Shown in pieces: positions 30,801 to 54,442 of a DNA stretch of 64,000 nt. How positions within the stretch are numbered: the first letter of the stretch is position 1; every line of letters begins with the position of its first letter. The notes under the pieces were generated by a model. That model was not told the origin of the DNA. It did no database searches and saw only the letters and a list, made by a program, of their open reading frames with translations. This DNA comes from Sipunculus nudus (Eukaryota > Annelida > Sipuncula > Golfingiida > Sipunculidae), in NCBI GenBank assembly GCA_026874595.1, contig CM049307.1:33088862-33152861 (forward strand), read 5' to 3'. Both the position numbers and the translations under genes were made by a program.

Positions 30801-31147
30801 AACTTATGCATTCGGGTTTTTAAATGTTATATTGTACTCCAAAGAACATAAAATTTCGCTGAAAATCCTACTAAAGTCTATAGGGTCTAAAACATTAATG
30901 GTCCGGTTGGCAGTGTGTCACCCTGTAAGCATCAGTGCACAGCCAGCCACACCCTATCACCTTCTTAAATCTATAAATAGCTGCATAAACAGATTAACCT
31001 TTGCCTAAAATATGAAATGCACAATAACAGTTACAGTACATTAAAGAAAACATGATATTTATTATAAATCATTAATATTGTTTCATATAAATCATAAAAA
31101 TACTTATCCAATATGTACATATCCAATATGTACAATAATCTGTAAAA
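27849..31147. other. Unassigned region with an octamer cluster and possible promoter-like CCAAT motifs
   Basis: 27894-27985 holds a dense cluster of AACACAAG/CTTGTGTT octamers. At 29548 and 29599 the phrase GCCAATCAGAT is repeated, resembling CCAAT boxes. A 178-codon frame at 29163-29699 includes a poly-Pro stretch that merely reflects a C-run, and I do not regard it as coding. No gene is supported. Confidence 0.35.
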
Positions 31148-33208
31148 ATGACCCATGGGTCATGACGCTCAGCCGACTGACATGTTGATAATATGTCCTT
31201 GCACAGACAACTAATTAAGATAGGTGGCATCATTGTTCATGCATATTAGCTTAATTTCATCAAGACCCAACCCATAAAAACAAATTTGATGACAATCCAA
31301 CCAGCCTTTCTTGAGGAATCTGGCAATTTTTGTGTATTTTGCATTATTTCTGGGATGCTCAAACATACCCCAAAACTCTGAGAAAATAGGTCACTGTGAC
31401 CCAATTTCAGGTTTCTGGGGAGAACTTTTGAGGAACTCTCACAATGTCAAGTTAGAAGATTCTGGGCCCCATTGTTATGATTTGTGCCCTACTTTGGGTA
31501 TCAAATTTTCAATTATTCTGAGGGGTGCTTATAAGCCCCATGGCTCAGAAAATATGGGTAACAGAGACCTTAATTCACGTTTCCAAGGAGACTTTTCACA
31601 GATCTCCCTGGATGTCAAGTTTGAAGATTCTAGGACCAATGGTTAAATTCGAGCTCTGTTAAGGGACGACCGCATCTTTGAAGGTCTCATAAATAGGCCT
31701 AGCGAAAAAAATGTGTTAAAATTTTTTTAAAATTAAGGTGGTGCCACCAGTCCACAAGAACTGATGAAACACTCCATGATGAATATGCATGCAAAGAATC
31801 AGGGTGATTATTGGAATAGTTGCTCAGATACTGGAGCTTTTGTATCAAATTTTTAGTTATTCTGGGAGGTACTTCTAAGACCCATAGCTCGGAGAATATG
31901 GGTAACAGAGACCTAATTTCAGGTTTCCATGATTTTTTATGGACCTCCCAGGATGTCAAGAAAGAAGATGCAAGCTCAAATAGTTATGATTTGTGCCCTG
32001 TTAACAGACGACCACATCTTTGAAGGTCTCAAAAATAAAGATAAAAATGCGTAAAAATTCAAAGTAGTCCCGGTGGCACCACCAGTTTGCATGAACTGAT
32101 GAAACACTCCATGATGCATATGCATGCGAAGAATAATGCCGACCAATGCACTAGTTGTTCAGATACCAGAGCTTTTGTATCAAATTTCAGTTTGGTAAAC
32201 TGTTCAAAGTTATATTGAAAAGAGAATTTCCTCCTTGTGTAATTAGAATTTTGTATGAAATGTATACCAAACAGAGCATAACAGTGAAGTGGATGAATTG
32301 CCATTCGGTCAGTTTTTCAGCAACAAACGGAGTGAGACAGGGAGGAGTGGTAAGCCCACTTTTATTTAATATGTATCTTGATGTTCTTGTCGTTGAGCTT
32401 AAAAAGATGGAACAGGTTGCCATATTGGACACTTATTCTCTGGATGCCTGGCCTATGCCGACGATCTCACGTTATTGAGCCCTTCGGTTAATGGTCTACA
32501 GCGCATGCTAGACAGGTGTGCATTTTTTGGAAAAGAAAATGGCGTCAAATACAATGCTGCAAAGACTGTTTGTATAAAATTTACGGGTAGGTGTCTGTAC
32601 ATGTAAATGTACGAAATAAATATTATATATAAATTTTTAGTTATTGTGGGGGGTTTTTCTGAGCCCCATAGTTAAGACAATATGGGTGACAGAGACCTAA
32701 TTTGAGGTTTCCAAGGAGACTTTTCATGGGCTACCCAACATGTAAGAAAGAAGATTCTAGGTCTAGATGTTACGATTTGTGCCCTGTTAACAGACGACTG
32801 CATCTTTTGAGGTCTCAAAATTAGATAAAAAAATCGTAAAAAATCGAAAAAAATACAGGTGGCGCCACCAGTCTGCAGAAACTGATGAAACACTCCATGA
32901 TCAATATCTATGCAAAGAATCATGGTGATCAATGCATTAGTTGTTCAGATACTTGAGCTTTTGTATCAAATTTTTCATTATTCTGGGGGGTACTTCCGAG
33001 CCCCATAGGTTGAAGAATATGGGTAACAGAGACCTAATTCCAGGTTTTCAAGAAGACTTTTTATGGACGTCTCTGAATGTAAAGTGAGAAGATTCCAGGT
33101 CCAGCGGTCACGATTTCTGCCCTGTTAACGGCCAGACGGCCGGACGGACGATGGACAAAAAGGGGGGTCGATATAGCTCAGATGACTTACAGTCAGCTGA
33201 GCTAAAAA
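31148..33208 (+). mobile_element. Repeat family B, copy with LINE insertion
   Basis: Opens with a perfect palindrome ATGACCCATGGGTCAT (31148-31163) and CGCTCAGCCGACTGACA. It closes with TTACAGTCAGCTGAGCT, the inverted counterpart, at about 33187-33203. Inside are repeated modules of about 300 bp with phrases AATATGGGTAACAGAGACC, TTTGTGCCCTGTTAACAG and GGTGGCGCCACC (perfect at 32858). Near the right end lies CGGCCGGACGGACGA. The same order of phrases occurs at 53.2-54.4 kb. No protein of its own; a reverse transcriptase fragment sits at 32190-32600. Confidence 0.75.
32190..32600 (+). pseudogene. LINE reverse transcriptase fragment
   Basis: The translation shows the RT core phrase NGVRQGGVVSPLLFNMYLDV, preceded by IRILYEMYTKQ. 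After a frameshift near 32430 it continues as AYADDLTLLSPSVNGLQRML, with the catalytic YADD at 32454-32465, then NGVKYNAAKTVCIKF. This is RT palm-domain sequence from a non-LTR retrotransposon different from the one at 39.8-45.5 kb. Both ends are truncated and it interrupts the family B copy. Confidence 0.8.
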
Positions 33209-36429: not shown

Positions 36430-37470
36430 GAAATTTGAAGCGGATACGTTTCAGGCAGGAAGGATTGCTGAATTCCTAGATAAATGGGAATCCTTAACCT
36501 CTGATGCTTCTGTTTTACAGACAGTAAGAGGCTGTAAGCTTGAGTTTTCGAAAAAAAAAACCTATACAGTTTTTTGTTCCAAGAGAAACTCAGTTTTCAG
36601 ATAGAGAATTGACAGTAGTTGACCAGGAACTGGGTAAACTTTTACAGAAAGGGGTCATACAAAAATGTAAACATACAAATGGAGAATTCATTTCGAATAT
36701 TTTTCTCAGAAATAAGAAAGATGGTTCACATAGAGTTATACTCAACTTGTCGGCATTTAATAAGTTCTTGGAATATAAACAATTCAAGATGGAGACATTC
36801 CAGACCATGCTCACGCTGGTTAGAAAAAACTGCTACATGGCATCAATAGACTTAAAGATGCATATTATTCTGTGCCTGTGGATGCAAGTGATAGAGTTTC
36901 TTAGATTTAGATTCAAGGGATCTTTATATCAGTTCACTGCATTACCAAATGGATTAGCCTCAGCGCCTCGCATATTTACAAAATTATTAAAGCCTCTTTT
37001 CTCTACCTTGCGGAAGCAGGGACATATATGTGCAGGATATATTGATGATACCTTTCTCATTGGGGACACATTGCATGAGTGTTATGACAATATAACTGCG
37101 ATTTGCAACCTCATAAGAGAGCTGAGTTTTCTTATACATCCGAAAAAATCTGTGCTTCAGCCCACACAGCAGATAACCATATTAGGATTTACTGTAGACT
37201 CAAGTTCTATGACTGTGGTGTTAACCAAAGATAAAGTTGACAATACTGTATCAAAGTGTGCACAGCTTATGGGAAAACAAGAGAGCACTATACAGGAAGT
37301 GGCTGAAATTTTGGGTGTTATGGAAGCTTACAGTGTAGCTGTACTGTTCGGCACAATACATTACAGACAGACTGAAATTCACAAGGCAGAGGCACTCCGT
37401 AAGAGTAAGGGCAATTACAAGACCAGCATGGCTATTCGTAGTAGAATGGTAGAAAACTTGCAGTGATATG
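36430..37470 (+). pseudogene. DIRS reverse transcriptase domain
   Basis: The first part (AGRIAEFLDKWESLTSDASV) is in one frame, and the rest is in the frame of 36540-37466. The shift falls at an A10 run near 36550, a typical slippage site. The core shows QKGVIQK, then GSHRVILNLSAFNKFL, then LYQFTALPNGLASAPRIFTK, and the catalytic GYIDD (37035-37049), followed by LSFLIHPKKSVLQPTQQITI. The first catalytic region has KMHIILCLWM, apparently missing the usual aspartate-tyrosine context, so activity is doubtful. The order and the YIDD box fit DIRS/Ngaro RT. Confidence 0.8.
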
Positions 37471-40699: not shown

Positions 40700-42535
40700 A
40701 AATGGTGGGACAAGGAATTTGAATTTTGAAAAAAACGAAAAATATATAGCTTCGAATAAGTATAGATGTACAATATCAGATGGCGACTTACTTAATTATT
40801 AACAAACAAAACAGAGATTTAAAAAGTAATGTGAAGAAAAGAAGGCAATCATCCAAGCCTCAGAGGTGCAAAAGGTGATAGGTGCAAAAAACACTGATTC
40901 CATGTGGAAAAACATGAGATTTTTAAAACAAAAAGAAAATCGTTAAAATAGTAGAAACGGTCCGTTGGTACAATTATTTTAAGGAAGTTTTTGAATTCAT
41001 CAACACATGAAATTAATCAAGAGTTTAAGAATCATACTCTGGAATATTTAAAAAAATGCATTAGAAATTGAAAATGATACAGAGCTTGATGGACTCATAA
41101 CACCATGTGAAGTACAGAAACCATAAATGAAATGAAAAGAGGAAAGGCCCCAGGGCCTGAAGGGATAACGGTAGATATATTGAAAGATACATATAGTCTT
41201 ATATATTTAAATTATTTAATAGTGTACTAGGAAATGGATTTTTCCCAGCCTCTTTGAGCAAAGCATTTATTGTACCAATTTTCAAAAAGGCTTCCATCAT
41301 AGATCCTAAAAAATTATAGAGGTATTTCATTACTTTATACCGTGGATAAACTATTTACAAAAATATTGGCAAACAGAATTCAAAATTATGTTGATCAAGC
41401 TGGATTATTATGTGAAGCACAAGCTGGCTATAGGAAAGGTTATTCAACAGTAGACCATACATTTTCTTCAATGGGGTGTGTGCAGAAAAATGTAACAAAA
41501 AAAAATTTTTATTACACATTTATTGATTTTTCAACTGCTTTTGATAGTGTACAACATGATTTATTGTGGTATGTTCCAGTTAAATCTGGGATAAAAGGGA
41601 AACTCTTACAAACACTTCAGTCAATATATAGTCAAATGAAATCACGTGTTCTTACAGAGGAAGGATTAACAGATTATTTTGAATGTACTAACGGAACTCG
41701 ACTAGGGTGCATGTCGAGTCCCCTTCTGTTTTCTTTATTCATAGATGAATTTTATGAACAAATTAATGAAACAGATTGTCATGGTATAAATATTGATGAA
41801 TATTTGCCAAACTTAATGACATTTAAGTACGGTGATAATTTAGTATGCTTCAGCGATACAACAGGACATCTCCAAGAACAAATAAACCAGTTGCAAGTTT
41901 TTTTCTGTCAATTATGGCTTATAAGTTAATTTAGGAAAGACAAAAATTATGGTTTTTAGACAGGGGGTTCATTAAAAAGAATAGAGTAATGGCACTATCA
42001 AAAATACTCGAATTGAAACGGTAAATGACAATATATACTTAGGGGTAATATTTAAGAGTATATTGTCTTGGTATAAAACAAGAAAAAAACTGCAGGCAAT
42101 ACAGACTGAGAGAGCAGCGACTCCCATTAAAAAACTTTTATAGGAAATATAGTTGTTTATCAGTGAGCCAGCTATTTTATCTATTTAATTGTATGGTCAC
42201 ACCGGTATTATTATATGGTTCAGAACTGAGGGGCTATGAAAGATGTGTAATAATTGAAAAGGTGCAATATAAATTTTGCAAATACATTCTAAAAATTATC
42301 TCATCAGCTCCGAACGCAGCATCATTGGAAGAGTTTGGAAGGCATCCAATGTATGTCGGTCAGTTATTAAGATGTGTAAAATACTGGAAAAAATAGTAAA
42401 TTATGGGAATAATAGATATCCAAAACGTATATATAACATGCTGTTTAATCTAGATATGAATGGAACACAAACATTGGTTACTCATATAAGAAGCAAAATA
42501 TGCAGCGCAGGTTTTGTGTGTGGGGGGATGAATAA
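40700..42535 (+). pseudogene. LINE reverse transcriptase
   Basis: Fragments in several frames read INEMKRGKAPGPEGITVDIL, DKLFTKILANRIQNYVDQ, AQAGYRKGYSTVDHTF, FYYTFIDFSTAFDSVQHDLL and TRLGCMSSPLLFSLFIDEF. The catalytic box has become FKYGDNLVCF instead of the usual ADD. Downstream LFNCMVTPVLLYGSELRGYE and YVGQLLRCVKYWKK belong to the post-RT region. The catalytic substitution and frameshifts show long decay. Confidence 0.8.
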
Positions 42536-46088: not shown

Positions 46089-46091
46089 TAA

Positions 46092-46124
46092 GGGCCCTTT
46101 TCCATGATCGCGTTTCCGCGCGCG
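46092..46124 (+). repeat. Harbinger left terminal inverted repeat
   Basis: 33 bp ending in CGTTTCCGCGCGCG, preceded by TAA. Further copies of the GCGCGCGGAAA palindrome follow to about 46320. Confidence 0.85.
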
Positions 46125-46355
46125 TTTCCGCGCGCGGAAAAATCGCCCTAGTGTTAACCATGTTTACCGTTTCCACGATCGCGTTTCGGCGCGCGGGTTA
46201 ATTCCGCGCGGAAAAATAAATTGCGCGATGCGCGATTTTTCCGCGCGCGTTTCCGCGCGCGGAAAAATCGCTCCAGTGTAAATCATGTATACCTTTTCCA
46301 TGATCGCTTTTCCGCGCGCGGAAATGTTGTTGTCGTCTGCTTGTATAGCATCAAC

Positions 46356-48155
46356 ATGTCACAACAAACAGAGCTCCTTTTATATTTGATCCGACGAAAA
46401 CGTTTAAATGCGACACGACTTGTCATGGCCCAGCAGCAAAAGAGGAAACATAGGTTCTGGGTCCATGACATGTTAAAAAAGAGAGAAAATCATGGGGCCT
46501 ATTACCACTTGGTAAGGGAGCTGGCACTGGACAGCCAAAAACATCACCAGTATTTCAGGATGTCTGCTGAGAAGTTGGAGGAAATACTCGGGTTTGTTGG
46601 ACCAGATATCCAGAAAAGAACTCTTGTGCGAGACCCACTGGAAGCGAACCAGAAACTGGCAATATGTGTAAGGTAACGTACCCTTAATATATTGTAATAT
46701 AGGAACCTAAATGTAATACTACCTGTTTGCCTCCCTGCGGAGGGATATATACATATATATAGCCTGGAACTTCAAGTATTAATCATTTGATGAGATATAG
46801 GGATTCATTATTTTCAGTATCTAATAAGAGTATAAATCCTGTGACATCTTAAGAGTAACATCCCATAAGGTAACGTGCCCTTAATATATTGTCATAGGCT
46901 TTGGAACCGGGGGGGGGGGGGCGAGGGGGGCGCGAGGGGGGGGGGGTATATTATGATATTATTTCCTGTTGGAAATATAATACTCTACAGAGAAGCTGAG
47001 ACTCCCGGAACCTATTGGTCATCAAGACTGTTGCCTCTGGGGTGCTCACGCTGGTCAGGCAGATGATAAACTGGTTGTACTTCAAGTGTCGACTTAATCG
47101 CTCATGGCATTTTTGGCGGCATAGGTGGTAGTACCCGCACCTCCTCCCCCAATTTTGTCATTGACGTTCCTGTACTATATAAAAAAAATTACACTTGCTA
47201 TGCTAACAAAAAAACATGCATACATAAACTATATTCATAAAAAAGAGGGAGCAGGCAGGCAGTGTCAATGCTTCCTACACTGTCAACCATCGAAATCATG
47301 GGATATTAATTGATCATAGTGTTACTATAGTCAGGTCAGGGCCTCTGAGGCTGCCACTGCATGCTGAGAACCTGGGTCCTTGCACCCTGAAGTGTGAGAC
47401 AGTCCAGATCATGTAGGTTGGGCATCTTTGCTATTCATAAACTGTCTTGCTGGTCATTCACAGTCACATTTACTGTCTGAAATTGAAGCTTGAAAGACAT
47501 GTCTATAGTCAGTTTGTATAGTGTTTAAATGGCATCTAGCAAAAAGCAGAAGGTATCTGACTTCTTTGTAAAATCTCAAGATTCCACCTATGACCCAGTG
47601 AGGTATGTAAAATTATATTTTGTTCCTTTAAGTTTCTAAATAAATAAGCTATTAGTAAACTATAAGTTTTTAGCTCAGCTGACTGTAAGTCATCTGAGCT
47701 ATATAAGCAGCTTTGGCCTTATAGCTGTCATATGTTCTGCCACCAATTCCAGACGCTTGCAGTAACTCAGTAAAGCAAATCGGAACCTTTATATTTGATA
47801 ATTACAACTCAAACTTCAAGTAAGTTTGAAAATGTTATATATTCTTTGCCTATTTGTATCGTGCTTTATACCTCACACACCAATGGTGGAGTAAAATTAA
47901 AATCCCAGTATAAATATTATCAATTTGGCACACATGATTCTGTAAATTAAATATTTAATCATTTTTTGTGTGGTGCAGCATGTGATTAAAAATAGGAAAT
48001 TGGTAAAAATACTGCACTGAAAATGCATTTTTTATGTTTTATTTTTTCAAAATTTTCCAAACTGTGAGAGGGGGATACCCCCTCCCACACCCACCCCCTT
48101 TCGGGAGCTTATGCACAATATGCCCTATATTTCACTTTTAAAAAGCTCAAAAAAC

Positions 48156-48204
<49 letters not shown>

Positions 48205-48304
48205 CAAAGTGCGCCCCCCCCCCCCCCACTTTCAAAACTATTCCGTAGCCTATGATTGTAATATAGGAACCTAAATGTAATACTACCTGTTTGCCTCCCT
48301 GCGG

Positions 48305-48348
<44 letters not shown>

Positions 48349-50319
48349 GATTGAGATTCAGCCTGGAACTTCAACTATTATTCATTTGATGAGATATAGG
48401 ATTCATTATTTTCAGTATCTAATAAGAGTATAAATCCTGTGACATCTTAAGAATAACATCCCAGAGGTAGACTTATAAACTTGATGTATACATGACTGAT
48501 ATTTTAACGTTTTAAAATTACTTTTATCTAATTTTTATCATATTTTTAATGTCTCGAATGAATATATATATGGATCAACCATTGCCCTGCAGTACCCTCT
48601 GGCTACTTTTGACGTCATCATTTTGGAGAATTAGCTTATGAAGAATCGATTAGGTTTGGGTGTGGGTCTGGCTCATGATCCGGATAAAACCTAACATTAA
48701 TCAGCTTATTTTGTTTTATGATGAATCTGTTATTCAGTGTATGGATGGCTTCCTGCATGCATGAAGTAAAGACTGCAAAGGAAATTAATCTGTTTTATCA
48801 AGAGTATGAAAGGCTTCCTGCATGCAGGAATTCAAGACTGCAAAGGAACTGCGGCTTCCGTTTTGTTCAACATGATCATAGTGATGTACACCAGTAGTTG
48901 AGAGTGAGGGTACGGATGCTTGAGGGACCGGCACAGGTGGTTGCTGGGAGGAATTATGTGGAAAGGAGGGGTGCTGGTGGGTTTCTTCAGCGATCCTTCT
49001 GCTCTGCTCCAGTTGCATATATGTGTTCCATATATGGTCTTCCATGTACAGCTGGTATGACTTCGGGAAACTGGCCATTTTTTCTCCAATCATCATGTAA
49101 AAGCTACCAGCTTTCTTTGTGGCTGAAATTTCTCCCTCCAGGCGCTTTATTCTGTGTGTGTCCTCTTCATAATCATCCTCTATTCTCTCAATCAGTTGTT
49201 GCATTGTTGTTCTTTTTCTTTTCTGTTGTTTTCCTTTTTTGTCAGAGGAGCTGGTTGATAAACATGCCGTTAGCCTTTTGTGCGAACCTCCTTGTGTTCT
49301 GAAATGTAAGAATTAGAAAACTAATAAGTAAAGAAAAATTTGCTTTGTTTTAATATTTTCTCGATGGATCAAATAATTATTATAACTATTTCAGATTTCT
49401 GGCTACTGGAGAAAGCTATGTTTCCCTTGCTGCACAGTATAGGGTCGGGGTCACGACCATCAGTCGCTTGGTACCAGAAGTGTGCACTGCCATATGGAAC
49501 AAAATGGGAGAAGCTTTCATGAAGATGCCACAAACGGAGCATGAATGGCAAATTGTTGCTCAGCAGTTCAAGCAAAAGTGGGACTTCCCACACTGTGTGG
49601 GAGCAGTGGACGGTAAACATATTGTCATCAGATCTCCCAGTAACAGTGGTTCTATGTACTATAATTACAAGGGTACATTTTCAATCATGCTTTTAGCTCT
49701 TGTGGATGCGTGTGGCAGATTTCTATATGTCGACATCGGGGCATATGGCCGGCAGTCAGATTCTGGGGTGTTAATGAATAGCAGCCTTGGTAAAGCACTT
49801 GCACCCCCCAATGCCCTAAATATACCACGGGCCGACTCCATTGAAGGAGCAGAACATATCGGGCCTCTGCCTTACGTTGTTCTTGGGGACGAGGCCTTTC
49901 CTTTGCAGGAACATATCATGAGACCGTTCCCCAGGAGACAGTGTGACCTTAACCAGGATGCGTACAACTATCGGCACTGTCGGGCAAGGCGCATTGTGGA
50001 ATGCGCATTTGGCATTCTTGCCACGAGATGGCGTGTTTTCTACAGCAGGATGGCCATTTCTCCAGAAAACGTTAAAACTGTAGTGCAGGCAGCCGTCATA
50101 CTACACAACATGTTACAAGCTGAAACAAGCCCAGGACCTGAATATGAGGAGATGATGAAGGGTTACCAGCCTGATAAAGTCAAGGGATTTAAAGGTGTAC
50201 CCGGTTTCGGCACCAGAGGTTCCACAGTTGCTGTGGATGTAAGGAACAGATTCACTGCTTTGTTTAACGAGTTTCCCTTGCCTTGGCAAACAGCTTACAT
50301 ACAAAAAGGACTTTATTAA
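46356..50319 (+). CDS. PIF/Harbinger transposase (DDE nuclease), two exons, 413 aa
   Basis: Exon 1 is 46356-46672 and exon 2 is 49395-50319. Donor AAG|GTAACG and acceptor TTTCAG|A join in phase 2 to give ICVRFLATGESY, the arrangement usual in this family. The N-terminal 100 residues are basic, with a helical segment MSAEKLEEILGFVG that resembles the family's helix-turn-helix approach. The nuclease core shows VGAVDGKHI (Asp about 178), VVLGDEAFPL (Asp about 271) and RRIVECAFGILATRWRVF (Glu about 308), a complete DDE triad. The enzyme cuts and joins transposon ends at TWA targets and needs the partner protein for nuclear entry and end binding. The alternative upstream ATG at 46221 would translate terminal-repeat DNA, so 46356 is preferred. 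AATAAA lies at 50457. The 2.7-kb intron contains the last exon of the partner gene on the other strand. Confidence 0.9.
47668..47705 (-). repeat. Family B end fragment in the Harbinger intron
   Basis: TTAGCTCAGCTGACTGTAAG followed by TCATCTGAGCTATAT matches the terminal sequence of the B copies at 33175-33208 in reverse. Only the tip is present. Confidence 0.6.
48158..48202. repeat. TA microsatellite beside a C-run
   Basis: (TA)n followed by CCCAAAGTGCG and a C-run at 48215-48228. Confidence 0.9.
48310..48342. repeat. TA microsatellite
   Basis: Expanded within the second copy of the duplicated intron block; the first copy has only a short tract at 46746-46762. Confidence 0.9.
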
Positions 50320-50772
50320 GCTGCAGTCTGAATATGTATTTGACAAACTCACTCATCCCCGGGTCCAGTCAAGCTGGAGAGGTTGTCGTCCGACTCATCT
50401 GGCGGTGAATTGTCCTCAGGAGTCATCTGTACATTAAAGTTGGAAACCGTGCTGCAAATAAAATAAAAAAAATCATTTTATATTTTTATCAGTATGTTTA
50501 ATGGGGGGAAAATATGAAGAGGGATACAGTGTGTGTGTGAGGCTGTGTGCGTGTCCCATGCATGTCTGGTGTTATGATGCCGGTGCTTAATCCCTGTTGA
50601 TTGTTTATTTCGCCATCACCTTACTCTCACTATACATGTGGTTGTCACTGAAGGTGCGTTCTATTGTGCACGCTTTCTCCTGAAAAAGATAGAGCTCATA
50701 TATTCCGATACCGCCGTGACAACCTCCATGTCCGTTAATTTAGCCGGCACTCAAATTTGTCTAGCTATAACC

Positions 50773-50834
<62 letters not shown>

Positions 50835-51990
50835 CTGTGTGACACATCTGATATATATTCCAATAAAAAATCTTTTAAAAAATAAGGTATAATGTTTAAG
50901 TACATGTATATTTAAATATTATTCTCTAAATATCGGGGGGGATGATTTCATTGACCATTCCCGATTGCTAAAAAGTACCCCATTCTCTCTCTCCCCCCCC
51001 CCCCCCCCCCTCCTTATTGATGCCCCTGAGTTTTGCACTCAAAACTTTCATTGCATATTATAAACACTAGTGTACCTTCCTTCTGTAGAACATTGGGATA
51101 AAAATTGGAGGCGATCCCAAAAGGGACCCTTGTTCAAGTATGCGGCCTCTGAACCACTCCGCTGTAACTCTTTCAGTTTTTTCTTGATGGTGCTGAAATA
51201 ATCTTTAAGATTTTTCCATTTGGTCCTTGCCATTTCCCCTGAAAAAAAAGAAATAATAAACTTGTGGTTGTTTTAATCAGATCAGTACGTTGTTGTCTAC
51301 AACAGGAACCACAATCATGTGTGATACGAAGGAATATTTTTATATATAAATTATCATGATTGTTCAGACATGTTAAGCACAGAGGTCGCAAATCGAACTG
51401 AAGGATCAGGGGTGGGCAGTGTTTTAAATATACCCAAAATGTTAACTTGATATATATATTTGAATTTATTTTATTATTATAATCTCATATATACCTTTGA
51501 TATAATATAAATATGGTTAACCTTTACTCGCCATGTAAACTAGTCTTCCCATATAAATTGTAAATTGTGAACAGGAAAATTGGAGGAATCTATTGAGAAA
51601 TAGGCCTCTATAGACCTGTTATAGGACACTATCCCAAATGCACAGCTCATATGCAACTATACATGCATGGGAAGATACAGAGACTAACTTAAGTTGACTA
51701 AAACCGAACATTTTTACATGATGATATATTTGTTAAATGATTAATAAATATGAAGCTTTTCTCAGTCGGTCCATGACAACAAATTAATGAATGAAGATGA
51801 AGTATGCATCTTTTAAAAATGAAGGGGGGGGGGGGGGGGGTGATGGGGTATTTGGGGCACATCCGGGGGGGGGGGGCAATAATAAAAAGGAAAAACATAA
51901 AGAGTAACAGTATTCCTAAGTACAGTTAGTTTTTTCTCCTGTACAGGACTGTAATGGACCAACCCCTCCCCAAATCAACCCCATGAGTGC

Positions 51991-52045
<55 letters not shown>

Positions 52046-52705
52046 CATGTATGTCTATTATTGCCCCCCTCAACCCCCATGAACATTTCGCTACGCCGCC
52101 AATGCATTTTGTATTGCCCCCCCCCCCCCCCTTTCGCGCGGACCAGATGTTATTTTTGTTTGTGAACGTAGGGCTACCGATGATGCGATAGACCTACAAG
52201 TTATATGTTAGACTTTGGGGATTATGATGAACTTTTCATTGTGTAGCTTTAATATTTTATTAATATTTTTTTAATAGTAATCTATGCATGCAAGATATAC
52301 AATATAGCCCAACCTTATACAAGTTATAATTTCTTATAGGCCTAAGCCCTACTATACGGTGCGAATTTTGTTGACTTTAGGCTTATTTTAGTTTGTATAG
52401 GCCTATTTATTATGAGGCCTATGCCTATTAATTATACTTTACTGTTTTAAATAAACTTTGGACAGTAGCCTATTGACTATTGTAGTATTTTCTTATTGAC
52501 AGTAATACCAGTAGGCCTACTTACAATCCAGCCCCTCCACGTCCATTTCTCTGGCTATCCTTGTCCAGGTTTTTTGTGCCAGGACCTTGTTTCTATGATC
52601 CTTCATTTTAGGATCATATAGCCATGGATTCCTCTCCACCAAGTCAATCAGACTTTCCTGCTGAGCCTGTGTCAGCTTCACGACCTGTTTTATTTGGCTT
52701 GTCAT
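48785..52705 (-). CDS. Harbinger MADF-domain DNA-binding partner, four exons, 318 aa
   Basis: Exons are 52705-52525, 51238-51076, 50451-50353 and 49298-48785. Each boundary has GT/AG (GATT|GTAAGT, AAG|GTACAC, GATGA|GTGAGT; acceptors TTTCAG, TTGCAG, TTTCAG), and phases 1, 2, 2 keep the frame open. Residues about 15-95 form a MADF/Myb-SANT-like domain: LIDLVERNPWLYDP, VLAQKTWTRIARE, then MARTKWKNLKDYFSTIKKKL. An acidic linker (PEDNSPPDESDDN) follows, then a basic nuclear-localisation-like stretch (KKGKQQKRKR), a helical segment LIERIEDDYEEDTHRIKRLE and a Pro/Gln-rich tail. In characterised Harbinger elements such a protein binds subterminal repeats and carries the transposase into the nucleus; that role is inferred here. 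Intron 3 contains the whole second transposase exon on the opposite strand. Confidence 0.85.
50776..50831. repeat. TA microsatellite
   Basis: Long (TA)n between the transposase gene and exon 2 of the partner gene. Confidence 0.9.
51993..52036. repeat. TA microsatellite
   Basis: (TA)n in intron 1 of the partner gene, flanked by C-runs. Confidence 0.9.
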
Positions 52706-52816
52706 GTTGCTGGAGGACGGGGAATCCCTGGTTAAAACACGTCATGCAAGGGGGATTCCGCGTTTCCGCGCGCGTTTCTTCTCACATGGAAAAGCTGAAT
52801 TCCGCGCGTTTTTTTC

Positions 52817-52849
52817 CGCGCGCGGAAACGCGATCATGGAAAAGGGGCC
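52817..52849 (-). repeat. Harbinger right terminal inverted repeat
   Basis: Inverted match to 46092-46124, followed by TAA. Subterminal CGCGTTTCCGCGCGCG copies start near 52759. Confidence 0.85.
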
Positions 52850-53157
52850 TAACACTGAGAATATTTGGTGGAACTAATAAAAAAATGAAAATGTATTATC
52901 CAAAGTTCATCTCCACCAAATTTGGTTCTTTTATCACAATCTGAACAATTCTTCTGTATTTTGCCGTTAACCGCTGCACTATAGGCATTTAGCAACTTAT
53001 GACGAGTCATCTAGTTTAAAGCAGGTTACTTGTAAGATGGTAACATTGCTTGCTTTGCTTACCGGACAGCGTTTACAAACTTTGCGAATGTTAGATATTA
53101 ATGATATATTGTTTCATGAAAGTTCATGTATATTAAAAGTAGGGGCTTTGCTAACAA

Positions 53158-54442
53158 GTGACCCATGGGTCATGACGCTCAGCCGACTGACATGTTGACA
53201 ATATGTATTTGCACAGACAACTAATTAAGGTAATGTAGGTGGCATCATTGTTCATGCATATTAGCTTAAGTTCATCAAGACCCATAGGCACAACAAATCT
53301 GATGACAAACAAACCGGCTTTTCATGAGCAATTTGTGTGTATTTTGCATTATTTCTAGGGTGCTCAAACATACCCCAAAACTCTGAGAATATAGTTCAAT
53401 GTGACCCAATTTCAGGTTTCTGGGGAGAACTTTTGAGGAACTCTCAGGATGTCAAGTTAGAAGATTCTGGGCTCAAAGGTTATGATTTGTGCCCTACTTT
53501 GGTATCAAATTTTTAATTATTCTGAGGGGTCCAGATGACCGCATCTTTTGAGGTCTCAAAAATAGATAAAAAAATAGTAAAAAATCGAAAAAAAATTACA
53601 GTTGGCACCACCAGTCTGCAGAAACTGATGAAAAACTTCATGATGAATATCCATGCAAAGAATCATGGTGATCAATGCATTAGTTGTTCAGATACTTGCG
53701 CTTTTGTATCAAATTTTCCATTATTCAGGGGGGTAGGAGCCCCATAGCTCAAAGAATATGGGTAACAGAGACCTTATTCCTCGTTTCCACAGAGACTTCT
53801 CACGGGCCTCCCTGCATATCAAGAGAGAAGATTCTAGGTCCAGTCCTTAGGATTTGTGCCCTGTTAACAGATGACTGCATCTTAAGAGGTCTCAAAAATA
53901 GAGAAAAAAAAATCGTGAAAATCGAAAAAAAATACAGGCGGCGCCACCAGTCTGCAGAAACTGATGAAACATTCCATGACCAATATCCATGCTAACTATC
54001 ATGGTTATCAATGCATCAGTTGTTCATATACCCGTTGTTCAGATAGGCCTACTAGTTGTTCAGTGACCTAATTTTGTTTCCAATGAGACTTTTCATGGCC
54101 CCCTTGCATATTAAGAGAGAAGATTCTAGGTCCAGTTGTTAGGATTTGTGCCCTGTTAAAGGATGACCGCATCTATTATGGTCTCAAAAATAGAGATAAA
54201 AATTCGTGAAAATCGAAAAAAATACAGGCGGCGCCACCAATCTGCAGAAACTGATGAAACATTCCATGACCAATATCCATGCAAAAAATCATGGTTATCA
54301 ATGCATTAGTTGTTCAGATACTAGTATTTTTCATGGACCTCCCTGGATGTCAAGTTAGAATATTCCAGGTCCAGCGGTTGGCCGGACGGACGACAGACAA
54401 AGAGTGATCGCTATAGCTCTGACTTACAGTCAGCTGAGCGAA
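53158..54442 (+). mobile_element. Repeat family B, copy 3
   Basis: Shares the opening ACCCATGGGTCATGACGCTC with the copy at 31148. It has the same phrases in the same order (AACATACCCCAAAACTCTGA, TTTGTGCCCTGTTAACAG, CAGGCGGCGCCACCAGTCTG twice) and the closing TTACAGTCAGCTGAGC. It lacks the LINE insertion of the other copy. Non-coding. Confidence 0.75.

Follow-up and report, generated by a model that had tools for sequence, protein, structure and literature searches.

Structure of the element

The window, the whole stretch of Sipunculus nudus DNA that was analysed, covers 64 kb of contig CM049307.1 (C2:33088862-33152861 of the genome searched, which comprises 1.43 Gb in 153 contigs). Within it lies a transposon of 6758 bp (46092..52849) with TAA on both sides and two genes on opposite strands. 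Its features are as follows, in window coordinates.

46089..46091, no strand: left target-site duplication, TAA, read from the sequence
46092..46124, + strand: left terminal inverted repeat, 33 bp, 32/33 identical to the right end
46092..46351, + strand: left subterminal region, GC-rich, with repeated TTTCCGCGCG/CGCGCGG motifs
46356..46672, + strand: transposase exon 1, open in 3/3 full copies
46673..49394, + strand: transposase intron, GT...AG, holding partner exon 4
48724..48848, no strand: tandem repeat of about 65 bp, two copies, overlapping the end of partner exon 4
48785..49298, - strand: partner exon 4 with the stop codon
49299..50352, - strand: partner intron 3, GT...AG, holding transposase exon 2
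49395..50319, + strand: transposase exon 2 with the stop codon and the DDE triad D178, D271, E308 (by motif)
50353..50451, - strand: partner exon 3
50457..50462, + strand: AATAAA, candidate transposase polyadenylation signal (motif only)
51076..51238, - strand: partner exon 2, second half of the MADF domain
52525..52705, - strand: partner exon 1, first half of the MADF domain
52730..52849, - strand: right subterminal region, GC-rich, 55%
52817..52849, - strand: right terminal inverted repeat, 33 bp
52850..52852, no strand: right target-site duplication, TAA, read from the sequence

The first-pass annotation had described both inverted ends, a TAA target duplication, a full DDE transposase and a full MADF-type partner free of stops and frameshifts, and agreement of all splice phases, and the analysis bears this description out. 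The four introns are all GT...AG with consistent phases. The target duplication is of the 3-bp TWA type seen in PIF/Harbinger elements. The GC content falls from 53% (left 260 bp) and 55% (right 120 bp) at the ends to 39% in the interior. There are 18 occurrences of CGCGCG in the element, overlapping matches included, of which 17 are close to the ends; the remainder of the 64-kb window contains one. The left subterminal region probably holds binding sites for the partner protein and the transposase promoter.

The first-pass annotation considered most other elements of the window to be decayed; a brief look at this point showed two fragments of reverse-transcriptase ORFs, at 36528-37463 and 41303-41926.

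The transposase and partner genes

The transposase gene encodes 413 aa in an open frame of two exons on the + strand. The product matches the Pfam family DDE_Tnp_4 (PF13359) over the full model with an E value of 8.7e-33, and its catalytic residues, assigned by motif, are spaced D-92-D-36-E. The candidate polyadenylation signal at 50457 is situated within the pyrimidine tract of partner intron 2. Searches of solved structures with the transposase gave no convincing relative (best E values 0.84 and 1.3), and none was found in the viral contigs scanned with its exon 2. A predicted fold of exon 2 that was made without an alignment had a mean pLDDT of 36.6 and was discarded.

The partner gene, on the - strand, has an open frame of 318 aa in four exons (52705-52525, 51238-51076, 50451-50353 and 49298-48785). 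The spliced product matches MADF_DNA_bdg (PF10545) over the full model with an E value of 1.5e-14. Exon 1 alone matches model positions 1-45 (7.6e-9) and exon 2 alone matches positions 44-84 (0.0011). The join between these two exons is therefore supported, because the MADF model is divided between them.

The join from exon 3 to exon 4 is the weakest step of the partner model and is predicted from sequence. If the donor of exon 3 were unused, an in-frame stop would be reached almost immediately, the product would be about 148 aa, exon 4 would be separate, and the two genes would be plain convergent neighbours. That no Pfam family was matched by exon 4 is in keeping with such a shorter gene. 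In the frame forced by exon 3, however, exon 4 has an uninterrupted reading frame of 171 codons, which was equalled by 0/2000 Markov sequences of its own composition. When 2.7 kb of exon 4 composition was simulated, a stop-free run of at least the length of exon 4 arose in some frame in 51/2000 cases and is thus not very rare; simulation with whole-intron composition gave such a run in 0/2000. The donor in the window copy is GTGAGT, and the GT and AG dinucleotides are retained in 3/3 full copies. The length of 318 aa also falls within the approximately 300-400 aa of published partners (PMC9710019), and exon 4 encodes a basic stretch, KKGKQQKRKR, that by eye resembles a nuclear localization signal. 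A partner ending just after exon 3 is considered unlikely.

Arrangement of the two genes

In these gene models, partner intron 3 (49299-50352) encloses the whole of transposase exon 2, and the transposase intron (46673-49394) the whole of partner exon 4, with no overlap between coding exons. This apparent interlocking, which is unusual, is absent from the first-pass annotation. On the combined evidence, it is highly probable that the locus represents a young, complete PIF/Harbinger DNA transposon in which the last coding exon of each gene lies inside an intron of the other. An older copy elsewhere in the genome (L011), which is 85% identical over 3108 aligned sites and deleted, still has transposase exon 1, part of partner exon 4, transposase exon 2 with partner exon 3, and partner exon 1, in that interlocked order. 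Since this copy retains the order, the arrangement is older than the present copies.

Transcription of each gene would proceed from its own GC-rich end towards the interior. Because the last coding exon of each is in an intron of the other, the two pre-mRNAs would overlap in antisense over about 2 kb, and the transposase 3' UTR, given the candidate signal at 50457, would cross partner exon 3 in antisense. Mutual interference or silencing of the two transcripts is possible and could keep the number of copies down. A simple internal deletion or exchange could hardly separate the two genes. From what is known of the family, the partner would bind the subterminal motifs, carry the transposase into the nucleus and deliver it to the element ends (PMC2836001, PMC9710019), and the transposase would cut the element and paste it into TWA sites. 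Both proteins would be required (PMC2836001, PMC9710019).

Full-length and deleted copies in the genome

The first-pass annotation had considered that the element probably arrived recently, which would call for near-identical copies elsewhere. Left-end and right-end DNA searches, in which the best 40 of 281 and the best 40 of 217 candidates were scored, identified two more full-length copies with unrelated flanks: L009 on C16 (6759 bp) and L010 on C10 (6874 bp). The window copy differs from these at 20 and 27 of 6264 sites (0.32% and 0.43%), counted outside low-complexity stretches that were marked by hand. Differences between pairs of the three copies number 20, 27 and 19 (0.30-0.43%), and private substitutions number 14 in the window copy, 6 in L009 and 13 in L010. 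Recent arrival is therefore supported, because near-identical full-length copies with unrelated flanks exist. Each insertion would be no older than its own private branch.

The transposase is open in all three full copies. The partner is intact in just one of them, the window copy, which is therefore the only one of the three examined with both genes open. The partner of L010 is broken by a premature stop and that of L009 by a frameshift beside a single-base run, where an assembly error is possible. L010 is flanked by TAA on both sides. L009, with TTA on the left and TAA on the right, is an exception to the equal TWA duplication. The older copy L011 has both ends of the window-element type, with TAA on its left; on the right, where the end is altered, the flank may be taken as either TTA or TAA. 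Two more older, internally deleted copies, L033 and L034, were seen by their right ends.

Ratios of dN/dS against L011 are only mildly below 1: the two transposase exons give 0.62 and 0.63, partner exon 3 (32 codons) 0.66 and partner exon 4 (73 codons) 0.54. For partner exon 1 (60 codons) the ratio is 0.23 against L033 and 0.18 against L034. As these counts are made against decaying copies, they give weak evidence of past constraint. The ratio for partner exon 2 against L011 (2.73, 29 codons) comes from an alignment that crosses a deletion and was not used.

Short elements related to the family

The two end searches also listed many short elements. Sixty of these loci were fetched, of which 43 gave two ends and 17 did not; the pairing of ends allowed substitutions only. 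The span from end to end is 541-925 bp, except in two elements of 1359 and 1407 bp that contain inserts. The ends of the short elements start GGSSCCTTTTCCATG, as in the full element, and most of the 35 printed left ends then diverge. Identity to the left 230 bp or so of the window element is about 77%, and most of the 35 loci share with it just the outer 15 bp or so and subterminal motifs. Left ends close to the 33-bp type were found in 3/35 (L024, L050 and L051), none of which gave a paired right end, and one further locus (L052) has a right end of the window-element type. Because the ends differ beyond the outer 15 bp or so, most of the short elements are relatives whose ends form a sibling set, and they did not arise from this copy by simple deletion. 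The first-pass annotation had suggested a search for short elements sharing the 33-bp ends. The picture for such derived elements is less clear: L011 is internally deleted and has both ends, and most of the 35 short loci have the sibling type.

The most similar pairs of short elements are 98% identical, as measured by a pairing that allowed indels and had the ends shifted by one base. Machinery of this type has therefore worked recently. The target sites of 33 short insertions, with L054 left out, show when symmetrised a TCWGTS-TWA-SACWGA tendency, to which no significance figure is attached. This preference beyond 3 bp rests on the related short elements and not on the full-length family. It is in keeping with the 15-bp target preference reported for vertebrate members (PMC2836001).

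Current state of the family

The PIF/Harbinger family of the window copy is judged from these comparisons to be young and possibly active. It may also be running down, as the partner is broken in two of its three full copies. It is quite possible, at somewhat under an even chance, that the window copy was inserted recently and is no longer moving, the family having stopped here and this being merely the last copy found with both genes open. The broken partners would fit a stopped family, as would the finding of only three full-length copies among the best 40 candidates of each search and the older, deleted state of the other large copies. Against this stand the 0.30-0.43% substitution between the copies, the transposase open in all three, and the 98% identical pairs of short elements, which point to recent work by such machinery. 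Domestication as a pair of host genes must also be weighed, since genes for PIF transposases and MADF proteins have often been domesticated together (PMC9710019). It is very improbable for this locus in view of the intact ends, the target duplication and the near-identical copies on other contigs; the domesticated BPLG2 is described in a passage of PMC9710019 as being without such ends and duplication.

Unequal TAA/TTA flanks

Because the flanks of L009 are unequal although just 6 of its 6264 sites are private, the flanks of the short relatives were examined. At most one substitution per end is present in 34 of the 43 short elements. The other nine were counted only in the comparison of all 43, and among them is L044 (CTA/CAA), which has T versus A in the middle as well and was counted with the other differences. 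Of the 34, 23 have identical flanks, six (L012, L014, L015, L023, L047 and L075) have TAA versus TTA, and five are otherwise different. Mutation along the terminal branches of a tree was considered as the source of the TAA/TTA flanks; it predicts 0.63 such cases (Poisson P = 5e-5) where six were seen, and 5.0 of the other differences. The 18 elements with a terminal branch of 0.02 or less include four TAA/TTA and no others, compared with expectations of 0.15 and 1.2 (P = 2e-5). When all 43 are taken together, the expectation is 1.03 TAA/TTA and 8.2 others, and the counts are six (P = 7e-4) and 12. With the two elements of more than 1 kb left out, 4/32 are TAA/TTA and 0.58 are expected (P = 0.003). 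These values come from one small, after-the-fact test that assumes equal rates of base change. The test leans against the result, because ties in the pairing were resolved in favour of equal flanks and age is overstated by terminal branches from a sparse sample. Mispairing of neighbouring elements was considered as well; all six align as single elements, two of them with inserts.

A tentative proposal, with somewhat less than an even chance of being correct, is that an inserting element passes bases of its donor site on to the new site, in the same family in which two required genes appear interlocked and inseparable by simple deletion or exchange. The excised element would carry the 3-nt TWA of its donor as 5' tails. 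A tail would pair with the strand of the new TWA target except at the middle base, and would be ligated instead of trimmed. Ligation with this mismatch would leave the element flanked by TAA at one end and by TTA at the opposite end. Ligation of donor tails has been described at engineered cuts (PMC11254759), and unequal flanks were constructed deliberately in PMC4561436. The passages of these sources that bear on the matter also weigh against the proposal, since the target-site duplications are given as without influence on target choice (PMC4561436) and free transposition as yielding an intact duplication (PMC11254759). The main rival source of the unequal flanks is exchange between copies elsewhere in the genome.

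Relationship to known systems

The element is a new member of PIF/Harbinger, a known group. It has a DDE_Tnp_4 transposase, a second gene with a MADF domain, a TWA duplication and inverted ends, and so shares with the PIF/Harbinger group of the PHIS superfamily the TWA duplication, DDE transposase, Myb/SANT-type partner and inverted ends (PMC4482050). It differs in the interlocking of its opposite-strand genes, gene arrangement not being a subject of the PMC4482050 passages. The same source describes Spy as a PHIS group with a transposase gene only and ISL2EU as having a partner with a YqaJ domain in place of Myb/SANT. The window element fits neither, since it has a partner and this is of the MADF type.

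The two-protein layout is shared with the zebrafish Harbinger3_DR, in which a subterminal motif is recognised by the partner and the transposase depends on the partner to enter the nucleus (PMC2836001, PMC9710019). The rice Ping/Pong/mPing elements likewise have TTA/TAA sites, two proteins and short non-autonomous relatives, and their excised form bears 3-nt donor overhangs (PMC2836001, PMC4561436, PMC11254759). In contrast to the rice elements, the short relatives of the window element often have unequal TAA/TTA flanks. The PIF/Harbinger-like elements of Medicago also have two genes, transposase introns and a variable gene order, orf1 being upstream of the transposase in five elements and downstream in six (PMC2213677). 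In the relevant part of the table in that source the genes are given one after the other, unlike the interlocked genes of the window element. No interlocked Harbinger genes were found in the literature titles and abstract openings searched, a scope outside of which Repbase reports fall, nor do they feature in the passages concerned of PMC9710019, PMC9179366, PMC4482050 and PMC2213677.

Implications

If bases of the donor site are indeed inherited, unequal flanks would be a readable record of the site from which an element came, and the TAA/TTA flanks would be natural evidence for ligation of donor tails. Surveys that require perfect duplications would discard such copies; the Medicago survey tolerated no mismatch in the duplications (PMC2213677). 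In fish elements, congruent trees of the transposase and the Myb-like protein have been reported and ascribed to co-evolution of the proteins (PMC9179366). Should the genes of the fish elements interlock likewise, this would offer an alternative reason for the congruence of those trees. The interlocked genes and the unequal flanks of the relatives of this element deserve to be followed up.

Flanks of the element and its relatives

Single elements with TAA at one flank and TTA at the other include L009, a full-length copy on another contig, and the related short elements L012, L014, L015, L023, L047 and L075. The ends of the full-length copy are:

1057 and 7815 (coordinates on the reverse complement of L009), one flank TAA and the other TTA

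Such unequal flanks are present in 6 of the 34 short relatives that have both ends with at most one substitution per end, approximately 10-fold above the mutation expectation. Among these 34, the 18 young ones (terminal branch ≤0.02) include 4 with unequal flanks.

Neighbouring sequences

Directly right of the element, window 52971–53195 has a weak tyrosine recombinase match that is under the cut-off (Phage_integrase, E 0.02) and is possibly a retroelement remnant. Two other features are apparently decayed retroelements:

36528–37463, reverse-transcriptase ORF fragment (RVT_1, E 1.3e-13)
41303–41926, reverse-transcriptase ORF fragment (RVT_1, E 5e-24)

Sequence near the right end of the element shares repeats of approximately 80–88% identity with other parts of the window (53152–53843, 31143–33104 and 53868–54322).

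Differences between full-length copies

Within the transposase intron of the window copy, 46688–46872 and 48251–48469 match each other in part, over approximately 75 and 112 bp at 95–97%, and form an internal duplication that is seen against both L009 and L010, the other full-length copies. The subterminal regions contain a 12 bp unit, TTTCCGCGCGCG (46238–46249 and near 52812), in copy numbers that differ among copies, with one extra unit at the left end in the window copy and one at the right end in L009.

The transposase is open in both L009 and L010 and the partner gene is broken in both, as if the partner had been lost before the transposase or were provided from elsewhere.
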